Source of the DNA: Rhodocyclales bacterium
GTDB lineage: Bacteria; Pseudomonadota; Gammaproteobacteria; Burkholderiales; Rhodocyclaceae
Assembly (NCBI GenBank): GCA_016214175.1
Contig: JACRPB010000177.1
Coordinates: 1 to 39,090 of the forward strand
DNA: 39,090 nucleotides
Direction: 5' to 3'
A program made the translations under genes and the position numbers. Positions 34,539 through 39,090 of the stretch are shown here, piece after piece (position 1 is the first letter of the stretch; every line of letters starts with the position of its first letter). The notes below the pieces were generated by a model. It was not told the origin of the DNA. It searched no databases and worked only from the letters and a program-made list of their open reading frames with translations.

Positions 34539-35843
<1,305 letters not shown>

Positions 35844-35904
35844 CGCGCCGCGGTTCATCCACCCCGATGACGACACGCACGCCCCGGACTCCCCTATCGT
35901 CGCC

Positions 35905-37596
35905 ATGACCGAACGCCGCCTCGACCTCGTCTTCCTCTGGCACATGCACCAGCCGGACTACCGCGACCACGCCAGCGGCGAGTTCGTGCTGCCCTGGGTC
36001 CTGCTGCATGCGATCAAGGACTACACCGACATGGCAGCGCATCTGGAGCGCCATCCGCAAGTTCGCGCCGTCGTCAATTTCGTGCCTATCCTGCTCGACC
36101 AGATCGAGGACTATTGCGAGCAGATCGACAGTGCCCGCTACCGCGATCCGCTGTTGCGGCTGCTGGCCCAGCCCGATCTCGACCGCATCGACCTCGACGA
36201 CCGGCGCCTGCTGCTGAAGACCTGCTTTCTCAACAGCCACAGCACGATGCTTGCGCCCTTCCCGCACTATCTGCGGTTGCACAAGCTCTACAGCCACGTC
36301 GTCAAGGAAGAGGGCGAAGCCGCGCTCGGCTATCTGTCGGGCGCCTATTACGGCGATCTCGTCACCTGGTATTTCCTCGCCTGGTCCGGCGAAACCGAAA
36401 GGCGCCGCCAGCCGCTGCTGGCGAACCTGATGACCAAGGGCGACCATTTCGACCACGGCGACCGCCTGCAACTGCTGGCCTGGATCGGCGCCACGCTGAA
36501 AGGCCTGGTGCCGCGCTACCGCGCCCTGCAGGAACGCGGCCAGATCGAGCTCTCGACGACGCCGCACACCCATCCGCTCGGCCCGCTGCTGCTGGACTTC
36601 GCCGCCGCCAGGGAAAGCCTGCCCGACGCGCAACTACCAGAGGCGCGGGGCTTTCCGGGCGGGCGCTCGCGCCTCGAAGCCCATATGGAACGGGCGAAGG
36701 CCAGCCATGCGGCACGCTTCGGCAGGCTGCCGGTCGGCATGTGGCCGGCCGAGGGCGCGGTATCGACCGGCCTCGCCGTGCTCTTCGCCGAGCACGGCTG
36801 CCGCTGGATCGCCAGCGGCGAGGGCGTGCTCAGGAACAGCCTGCGCGACGCCAAGCTGCCCGACCAGCGCGCCGCCTATCGGCCCTGGCGCCTGGCCGAC
36901 TGCCCCGATCTCAGGCTGTTTTTCCGCGACGAACGGCTGTCCGACCTGATCGGCTTCGAGTATGCGAAATGGCACGGCCGCGACGCCGCGCGCGACTTCG
37001 TCGCCAAGCTCGAAGACATCCTCGCCGCGGCGCCGGCCGGCGAGACGCCCGCCGTCGGCATCGTCCTCGACGGCGAAAACGCCTGGGAGCACTATCCCTA
37101 CAACGGCTACTACTTCTTCGACGATCTCTACGCCCTGATCGAGGCCCACCCGACGATCCGCAGCACCACCTACGCCGAAATCGTCGGCCGCGCAGCGCCG
37201 CCGCCCTGCGGCACGCTGCCGCGCCTGACCGCCGGCAGTTGGGTCTACGGTTCGCTATCCACCTGGATCGGCGATGCCGACAAGAACCTGGCCTGGGATC
37301 TACTCTGCGAAGCCAAGCAGAGCTACGACCTTGTCCTCGCCAGCGGCCGCCTCGACGCCGCCGAAGCCGCCGCGGCCCAGGCGCAGTTGGCGGTATGCGA
37401 AAGCTCGGACTGGTTCTGGTGGTTCGGCGACTACAACCCGGCGCACGCCGTCGCCAGCTTCGACCAGCTCTACCGCCGCAATCTGGCCAACCTCTACCGC
37501 CTGCTCAAGTTGGCGCCGCCGGCCGAACTCGACGCCGCCATCTCCGCCGGCAGCCGCGACGCCGCCGGCGACGGCACCATGCGGAGGGCGACATGA
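35905..37596 (+). CDS. Glycoside hydrolase family 57 protein (alpha-amylase/branching type)
   Basis: 563 residues from ATG 35905, 61 bases after glgC. GH57 marks: N-terminal LVFLWHMHQPDYRD (His-x-His-Gln-Pro), NFVPILLDQIEDY, the HTHPLGPLLLD block, GMWPAEGAVS with the probable nucleophile Glu, and LDGENAWEHYPYNGYYFFDDLY with the probable Asp acid. It likely cuts or rearranges alpha-glucans as part of glycogen metabolism. Its stop codon overlaps an ATG (ATGA at 37593), suggesting that another gene of the operon once followed; after about 70 bases foreign repeats begin. Confidence 0.92.
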   Translation: MTERRLDLVFLWHMHQPDYRDHASGEFVLPWVLLHAIKDYTDMAAHLERHPQVRAVVNFVPILLDQIEDYCEQIDSARYRDPLLRLLAQPDLDRIDLDDRRLLLKTCFLNSHSTMLAPFPHYLRLHKLYSHVVKEEGEAALGYLSGAYYGDLVTWYFLAWSGETERRRQPLLANLMTKGDHFDHGDRLQLLAWIGATLKGLVPRYRALQERGQIELSTTPHTHPLGPLLLDFAAARESLPDAQLPEARGFPGGRSRLEAHMERAKASHAARFGRLPVGMWPAEGAVSTGLAVLFAEHGCRWIASGEGVLRNSLRDAKLPDQRAAYRPWRLADCPDLRLFFRDERLSDLIGFEYAKWHGRDAARDFVAKLEDILAAAPAGETPAVGIVLDGENAWEHYPYNGYYFFDDLYALIEAHPTIRSTTYAEIVGRAAPPPCGTLPRLTAGSWVYGSLSTWIGDADKNLAWDLLCEAKQSYDLVLASGRLDAAEAAAAQAQLAVCESSDWFWWFGDYNPAHAVASFDQLYRRNLANLYRLLKLAPPAELDAAISAGSRDAAGDGTMRRAT

Positions 37597-37663
37597 GGGC
37601 CGCGTCCGTGCGCCGTGCCGTTTTTGAGGTTCACTGCCACCGACGTATCCGGCCACGGATGGC
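37593..37663 (+). pseudogene. Possible 5' remnant of the next glycogen-operon gene, cut by repeats
   Basis: An ATG overlapping the GH57 stop (ATGA) opens MRAASVRRAVFEVHCHRRIR before the sequence enters the 162-bp repeats at 37664. In a tight operon this overlap usually marks the next start codon. The short peptide matches no family that I recognise, so the remnant call is an inference from position alone. Confidence 0.3.
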
Positions 37664-37986
37664 GGGTGTCCGGTTCCCGCAAGTAAAGGAGGAGGGCCGG
37701 CGCCTTTTCGGCCCGGGGGACATGGAGGGAATCGGACACCCGCCGGCCGTGGCGTGCGGACAGGACTTCCTCTTCTGCAGCAACACGAGGCCTACTTGAC
37801 GTTATCCATCTATCGAAACCGCAACGGGTGTCCGATTCCCGCAAGTAAAGGAGGAGGGCCGGCGCCTTTTCGGCCCGGGGGACATGGAGGGAATCGGACA
37901 CCCGCCGTCCGTGGCGTGCGGACAGGACTTCCTCTTCTGCAGCAACACGAGGCCTACTTGACGTTAGCCATCTATGGAAACCGCAA
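37664..37986. repeat. Tandem pair of ~162-bp structured repeats at the cassette array edge
   Basis: Copy 1 is 37664-37825 and copy 2 is 37826-37986, with about four mismatches. Each unit holds a long hairpin: GGGTGTCCGATTCCC pairs with GGGAATCGGACACCC (perfect in copy 2, one wobble in copy 1), enclosing an inner stem GGGCCG...CGGCCC. The unit ends ...GGCCTACTTGACGTTA(T/G)CCATCTAT(C/G)GAAACCGCAA, so the repeat runs 23 bases into the first integron cassette, including its ATG (ATC in copy 1). The gap 37597-37973 contains nothing else that looks coding. Confidence 0.9.
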
Positions 37987-38594
37987 TCCTCACATCAATC
38001 GTCGCCGGTTCATCCGCGCTACTTGGCGTTGCATTGACGTCGGCTATTCAGTCACGCACGCAGCGAAACAATCAACAGTTTCAACTCGCGCTCGAATCAT
38101 CGAAACGGGAAAGCGATCTGCGGGAAAAGGAAAGAGTACTCGCACTTGAGCGGCTGGCTGTGGCGCATCGCAAGTTGAATATCATAGGTCGGGAGTTTTC
38201 GCTCACAAGCCTTGACATAAATTGGCGTGCCGAAATGAAAGACTCTGAGTACGACCAACGGTACTTATCCGTGTGCGAGAACGTCGATGAATTGCGGGTC
38301 ATTGCAGGCCTGTACGAAACGTCGTTGATTGAAGACGTCGAGAAAATGTATGGTCAGATGAACATATTCTGGGGCAATTTTAAGAATGTCTTGCGCTTAA
38401 CGAACCTTGGCGAGAAAGTAGACCATACGACTTCGTGCTTCCAGCAAGCGCATGCCACGGCTATTGACATTGGCCGTCAAGCCCAAGCTTTGAAGTCCAA
38501 ACTGTCAGAGCTTGCACGAAGGTATCGAACCGATGGCTAACCCTGCGTTCGAGCGGACCTGCGCGAAAAGCCGCGCAGGCCGCTCACTTCCACG
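37964..38594 (+). mobile_element. Integron gene cassette (631 bp)
   Basis: Bounded on the left by G^TTAGCC (cut after G37963) and on the right by G^TTGGAC (cut after G38594). It contains one ORF filling almost the whole cassette, whose TAA stop lies inside the attC. The cassette's first bases TTAGCC complement its attC R'' box GGCTAAC exactly, as expected if both come from one circular cassette. Base composition is clearly lower in GC than the neighbouring genes. No integrase gene lies in the window. Confidence 0.85.
37974..38540 (+). CDS. Cassette-borne hypothetical protein with N-terminal membrane helix and coiled coil
   Basis: 188 residues. METAILTSIVAGSSALLGVA forms one hydrophobic helix (about 4-25). 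A charged coiled-coil stretch follows (about 30-70, QRNNQQFQLALESSKRESDL), then a mostly helical soluble region without known motifs. Likely an inner-membrane anchored protein with a cytoplasmic helical domain. Its stop TAA falls in the attC R'' box, typical of integron cassettes. No Shine-Dalgarno precedes the ATG, also common in cassettes. I recognise no family. Codon use and GC differ sharply from the host genes to the left, showing transfer. Confidence 0.8.
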   Translation: METAILTSIVAGSSALLGVALTSAIQSRTQRNNQQFQLALESSKRESDLREKERVLALERLAVAHRKLNIIGREFSLTSLDINWRAEMKDSEYDQRYLSVCENVDELRVIAGLYETSLIEDVEKMYGQMNIFWGNFKNVLRLTNLGEKVDHTTSCFQQAHATAIDIGRQAQALKSKLSELARRYRTDG

Positions 38595-38600
38595 TTGGAC
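38535..38600. other. attC recombination site
   Basis: R'' box GGCTAAC (38535-38541) and R' box GTTGGAC (38594-38600, fits GTTRRRY) enclose an imperfect palindrome: GAGCGG-A-CCTGCGCG, loop AAAAGC, CGCGCAGG-CCGCTC. The single unpaired A is the extrahelical base that lets the integrase choose the bottom strand. Total length 66 bases, in the normal attC range. Confidence 0.92.
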
Positions 38601-38612
38601 GTCTTAGTCCGC

Positions 38613-39090
38613 ATGAATCCGCACCTTACCGCACTTGGCATTTCGAGCGAATTGATAACGGCTCGTGGCTTACGCGAATGCGAGGAGGCTGCGACGCTTG
38701 AAGTTGCCGAAGTGGGGGCGGATGGTCGAGATCACTTGCTTATCCCTTTGGCCGCCGAAGCGTGGCGCGCACTCAAGGCGGCGGCGCTCGCTGATGGCAT
38801 CGATCTATTCATTGTTTCGGCCTTTCGCAGCATTGACCGGCAAGCCGAGATAGTTCGCCGAAAGCTTGAAAGTGGGGCGGTGGTTGAAAGCATTCTCACC
38901 GTTTGCGCGCCTCCGGGCTTTAGCGAGCATCACACCGGGCGAGCCGTCGATCTTTCAACCTTTGGCAGCCGCGCGCTCGAAGTCGAGTTCGACCAAACTG
39001 CTGCATATGGCTGGCTCATTCAGCACGCTTCTGAATTCGGCTACTATCTTTCGTATCCCGTTGGCAACTGCTGGGGCTATCAATATGAAC
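38613..39090 (+). CDS. M15/VanY-like D,D-carboxypeptidase, partial, in the second cassette
   Basis: Absent from the ORF track because it has no stop in the window. From ATG 38613, 13 bases after the attC, 159 codons stay open to the right edge: MNPHLTALGISSELITARGL... Marks of peptidase family M15B (VanY type): LFIVSAFRSIDRQAEIVRRK, then APPGFSEHHTGRAVDLSTFG with the zinc ligands of the SxHxxGxAxD motif, and at the edge YYLSYP...WGYQYE, just before the expected final WHW zinc motif. No signal peptide is seen, so it may act in the cytoplasm or on free peptides. In the VanY family such enzymes remove terminal D-Ala from peptidoglycan precursors. Gene order and base composition make it cassette cargo. 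Confidence 0.85.
   Translation, partial: MNPHLTALGISSELITARGLRECEEAATLEVAEVGADGRDHLLIPLAAEAWRALKAAALADGIDLFIVSAFRSIDRQAEIVRRKLESGAVVESILTVCAPPGFSEHHTGRAVDLSTFGSRALEVEFDQTAAYGWLIQHASEFGYYLSYPVGNCWGYQYE

Follow-up and report, generated by a model that had tools for sequence, protein, structure and literature searches.

The probable left edge of an integrase-less cassette array at an attG-type site, most likely inside a glycogen operon, and attI-led arrays in related genomes

Integrase-less attC cassettes in genomes that encode the integron integrase elsewhere are among the closest known systems to the locus described here and share its arrangement. Insertion of cassettes into bacterial genomes at attG sites has been reported (Loot et al., 2024, Nat Microbiol 9:228, as cited in the accessible parts of PMC11023631 and PMC12444791), the target, as in our locus, being a G^TT distinct from both attI and attC. 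In E. coli, attG insertions affect numerous loci with little site specificity (PMC12444791), whereas our locus presents a single base, occupied in two species, with an attI-like core. The scattered pattern found in the present family is also known from Xanthomonas, where CALINs lie away from ilvD, at conserved places in related species, in genomes with one main intI locus (PMC12444791). In addition, attI sequence outside its normal place, likewise seen in the family studied here, occurs in the Delta-attI-type cassettes of class 1 and 2 integrons, where, according to the accessible part of PMC12901181, it mostly measures 14-18 nt and replaces the attC of a cassette within the integron.

The DNA analysed (hereafter, the window) is a stretch of 39,090 bp that represents the entire contig C51 of a draft genome (G000; 368 contigs, 81% complete) from a bacterium most likely of the family Rhodocyclaceae, and its right-hand stop at 39090 is a contig end with a technical cause. 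We read the right-hand end of the window, with a probability of roughly 70%, as the left edge of an integrase-less cassette array that occupies a secondary (attG-type) site inside the glycogen operon and would be loaded and exchanged in trans. Compared with the integrase-less cassettes known so far, it is distinguished by a single attC before the contig ends, by its most likely position within a core operon, and by a sister species in which that base carries another cassette. Taken alone, the window array belongs to a known class, that of cassettes without integrase at an attG-type site, and the same-base occupancy comes on top of this; it is the attI copies detected across the family, among which the window's own site is not counted, that make the system a variant.

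A genuine attC, as claimed in an earlier note on this DNA, was found on the forward strand at 38535-38600. An attC model (R3) built from 18 sequences of relatives, with the window's own site left out, scored it at 83.6 bits (E 1.3e-20), and no further attC was recognised in the 39 kb, all other R3 matches being no better than E 0.26. For the bottom strand, a fold of -23 kcal/mol was obtained (z -4.2 against shuffles), in which a bulged T faces the extrahelical A. The R'' and R' boxes that had been named are real, but their coordinates had to be corrected: R'' (GGCTAAC) occupies 38535-38541, and R' (G^TTGGAC) 38594-38600. In a closed relative (G014), the array next to intI contains an attC with 95% identity to this element. 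A search for Rfam families in the window gave no matches.

Cassette 1 (37964-38594, forward strand) begins at G37963^TTAGCCATC and is closed by this attC. The GTTAGCCATC at 37963-37972 is the reverse complement of the R'' region in 10 of 10 nt, in line with the claim that the left end of the cassette matches the complement of its own R''; such a match is expected by chance in only about 0.2% of cases, because the 3.5 kb upstream contain only 26 GTT. The cassette carries an ORF of 188 aa (37974-38540, forward strand) belonging to no known family. Directly after the attC, as had been proposed, cassette 2 begins (38595-39090, forward strand) and is cut by the contig end; its gene, with an ATG probably at 38613, encodes an M15/VanY-type peptidase (PF02557, E 2e-28). 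GC content is 50% in the coding part of cassette 1 and 57% in cassette 2, whereas the host DNA of the window reaches 66%. By its attC structure and left-end signature, the feature is an integron gene cassette. The window shows a single attC before it ends at 39090, the default of IntegronFinder 2.0 for a CALIN being at least two attC sites. Homologues of cassette 2 were found between two attC in G167 (87% identity at the amino acid level) and G307 (71%). The prediction that the R'' of cassette 2 should be close to GTCCAAC found support in its two closest homologous cassettes, that is, outside the window's contig: these carry AAGACTTCCAAC (87% aa identity) and AAGACGCCCAAC (85%), each agreeing in 11 of 12 nt with the expected AAGACGTCCAAC, the sequence complementary to the left end of cassette 2.

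To the left of the array, neither intI nor attI was detected, as the earlier note had also stated, and only an operon gene and REP-like palindromic elements are present. Two copies of the latter were identified, at 37652-37753 (27-nt inverted arms) and 37825-37904 (16-nt perfect inverted arms), both without assigned strand. They correspond to the structured repeats noticed earlier and belong to a genus-wide REP-like family, with at least 21 exact-pattern copies in the window's genome, and are not integron parts; none was found in six genomes outside the genus, the element being thus genus-specific among the genomes tested. The pattern GTAAAGGAGG..GGGGACATG is present in G000-G004 in 8 to 25 exact-pattern copies per genome, often as inverted pairs about 110 bp apart. 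The repeats were rejected as a form of attI, since they stand in many places in the genus and neither of two inspected gene-adjoining copies is accompanied by a cassette. A link of all scattered arrays with the REP family found no support: among the sites with exact boundaries, an element within 400 bp was found only at the window and at G004:C12.

The same flank contains a 162-bp tandem duplication (37663-37986, forward strand), whose copies, 37663-37824 and 37825-37986, are 98% identical and include the REP element, the core site and the first 23 bp of the cassette, giving rise to a second core site at G37801^TTATCC. Of the attachment site, the left half (GCCTACTTGAC G^, 37952-37963, forward strand) is attI-like in its core only. 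When the 751 GTT sites of the window are ranked for the attI core, the boundary core ACTTGAC G^TT and its own tandem copy take the first two places. A full attI at the boundary was rejected on the basis of 1.8 bits with the full attI sequence model, trained on five intI-adjacent attI sites. The likeness to attI is short, and we read the boundary as an attG-type site, the G^TT belonging to host DNA and to neither attI nor attC.

The left neighbour of the array is an ORF for a GH57 protein of the glycogen operon (GH57a, 35773-37596, forward strand). Relatives of GH57a were found in 21 of 41 genomes, in most of which a second GH57 gene (GH57b) comes next; the gap between both genes measures 2-109 bp in 18 related genomes, and about 20 bp, uninterrupted, in G001, which belongs to the same genus. 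No attC was found at the GH57a-GH57b junction in 22 such loci, and relatives carry the operon without an insertion there. In the window's own genome, 354 bp separate the start of another contig, C242, from the start of GH57b. Because the GH57 genes adjoin each other in relatives and the genome's own GH57b is located near a contig start, the array most likely sits inside the glycogen operon, between GH57a and GH57b and in the same direction, and not behind the operon, as had been claimed. The implied join of C51 and C242 would follow from synteny. Between positions 37400 and 39090 no terminator-like site was found, and the only promoter-like site is on the reverse strand. Since the array has the same direction as the operon and lacks forward promoter-like and terminator-like sites, read-through may express the cassettes, the host operon perhaps supplying their expression.

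Directly before GH57b, positions 1-210 of C242 (L153) hold the 3' end of a gene for a PDC-S02/NucS-like nuclease (a candidate defence family). This gene is possibly the last cassette of the array, and no attC was recognised next to GH57b on C242, that is, at the right edge of the array.

The same place is occupied in a sister species (G004), whose GH57a is 79% identical to that of the window. On a single 95-kb contig, two REP-like elements precede the boundary G^TTATGCGC; a lone cassette of roughly 0.34 kb follows with an attC (R'' GCATAAC, R' GTTAAAC), and then comes the second GH57 gene, with no integrase between the cassette and GH57b. The 58 bp to the left of the boundary can be aligned between both species as far as the same G, none of 2000 shuffles aligning as well, whereas the cassettes behind this homologous flank differ. 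Therefore, one nucleotide position is followed by different cassettes in two species. In another member of the genus (G002), a small ORF without attC match is found at this place. Exchange of cassettes, loss from an older and longer array, or two insertions at a preferred base are possible origins of the same-base occupancy.

The last of these, two unrelated single insertions at a preferred base in the window's species and in G004, with no later exchange, is unlikely, although it ranks as the strongest competitor. It agrees with the different cassettes and with the lack of any cassette at this place in G001 and G002; however, it would imply a preferred site anyway, the two boundaries coinciding at one base of homologous flanks. 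According to the reading that we favour, circular cassettes would have been inserted via their attC at the short core site beside the REP-like repeat, and later exchanged, by an integrase acting in trans. The occurrence of different cassettes at the same base of a core operon in two species is a hint that sites of this type may remain functional over time.

The integrase in question would be that of contig C365, the only one in the window's genome with a match above the family cut-off (476.8 bits; cut-off 265); other integrase-like matches fell below this value and were dismissed. It is the sole intI in a genome that is 81% complete, which leaves some room for a second one. The C365 intI adjoins an attI-like site, CACTTTACG^TTAGCC. 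Of the two alternatives put forward earlier, a CALIN would fit the data as far as the contig reaches, and an array facing away from a distant integrase does not, because, given the direction of the cassettes, any attI would have to be on the left, and there the operon goes on, and because the only intact intI, on C365, has its own attI.

CALINs, which are common, have been proposed to be degraded integrons (accessible part of PMC9024848). Decay of a complete intI-attI-array formerly present at this place, with intI and most of its attI gone and the cassettes now immobile, is distinctly improbable, even though such decay happens in the family, as shown by a truncated intI beside the copied attI of G027 and by a fragment of intI near an array in G022. 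Beyond the core, no attI was found at the boundary in the window or in G004, while attI copies elsewhere remain recognisable; moreover, in both species the operon gene and the REP-like elements extend to roughly 50 bp from the boundary, so that there is no room for remnants of intI. Finally, a wrong joining of the C365 integron cassettes to the GH57a contig during assembly, to which the position of the boundary after a tandem and a dispersed repeat, the contig break shortly after it, and the inflation of CALIN counts by draft genomes (PMC9024848, accessible part) might point, is very improbable in view of the same GH57a-cassette-GH57b arrangement on one 95-kb contig in G004 and of the splitting off of the genome's own GH57b at exactly this place.

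In our preferred reading, the window array would be one among several scattered docking sites of a single integrase. With the attC model, clusters of attC away from intI were found in nine genomes of the family, with many clusters in most of them. The attI model detected, besides intI-adjacent sites, copies without adjoining intI in the same genomes. Six genomes with exactly one intact intI contain 12 such copies (one each in the window's genome, G014 and G027, two each in G002 and G004, and five in G035), all of which lead an attC in the correct orientation. A seventh genome, G024, with one intI and a different attI type, has three copies of its own type. Altogether, 15 scattered arrays without a usable integrase start with a copy of the attI of their own genome, in seven genomes with one intact intI each; G035 combines a single intact intI with six attI-led arrays. 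A family-wide scan gave an attI-model match in 38 of 249 genomes, and among another 40 loci that were retrieved, 23 lacked a neighbouring intI, 17 of which led an attC by our own count; whole-genome intI counts cover the seven genomes. An intI-less attI copy leading an array is also carried by G307.

The attI-led pattern, absent at the window's own site, is present in the same genome on contig C178 (L086, boundary near 829), where 36 nt are identical to the C365 attI and an attC lies downstream. Some copies of G035 share up to 254 bp with each other, but their similarity to the attI beside intI ends after about 56 bp, a hint that new copies arose from earlier ones. Because the copy in G027 includes an intI fragment, duplication plus loss also occurs. 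In three congeners (L086, L101, L105), a 145-bp palindromic repeat, 82-84% identical in two of the three comparisons, was observed about 100-270 bp upstream of the attI copy.

The family's copies are, unlike the attI sequences of Delta-attI-type cassettes as far as the accessible part of PMC12901181 describes them, about 40 bp or longer, array-leading and located at distant chromosomal places. Similarly, no attI copies are described for the Xanthomonas CALINs in the accessible part of PMC12444791, whereas here 15 arrays in seven genomes start with one. An open-access search of the literature on CALINs and attG, in its accessible text, returned no description of scattered attI copies, which is weak evidence of novelty; one paper uses the term 'attI-like' together with integron and cassette, its topic being off-target inversions. 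As far as found, integrase-less arrays led by attI copies are new. The pattern could easily be missed, because attI detection in IntegronFinder 2.0 is limited to class 1 (accessible part of PMC9024848).

Tentatively, and at slightly worse than even odds, one chromosomal integrase would serve a docking network composed of its own attI, scattered attI copies (up to five extra per genome) and attG-type sites, between which cassettes would move, so that the integron would be spread over many operons. The attI copies make it testable whether one integrase maintains several landing sites.

Regarding plasmids, the window attC (38535-38600) was compared with the records NZ_LC589514.1 and NC_003486.1: identity is 92% with the attC of a small hypothetical cassette carried by a plasmid class 1 integron, and 83% with the one following blaOXA-9 in pJHCMW1, a level at which 572 plasmid records match. 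In a megablast comparison of the region with plasmids, the attC was the sole matching part. This likeness hints at a related source for those cassettes.

A second attC of the window's genome, 98% identical over 51 nt, is located on contig C90 (L025, 5045-5111, minus strand), behind genes that look by eye like VapB/VapC-type genes and downstream of a response-regulator gene. Since its R'' box is damaged, this cassette may be frozen in place.
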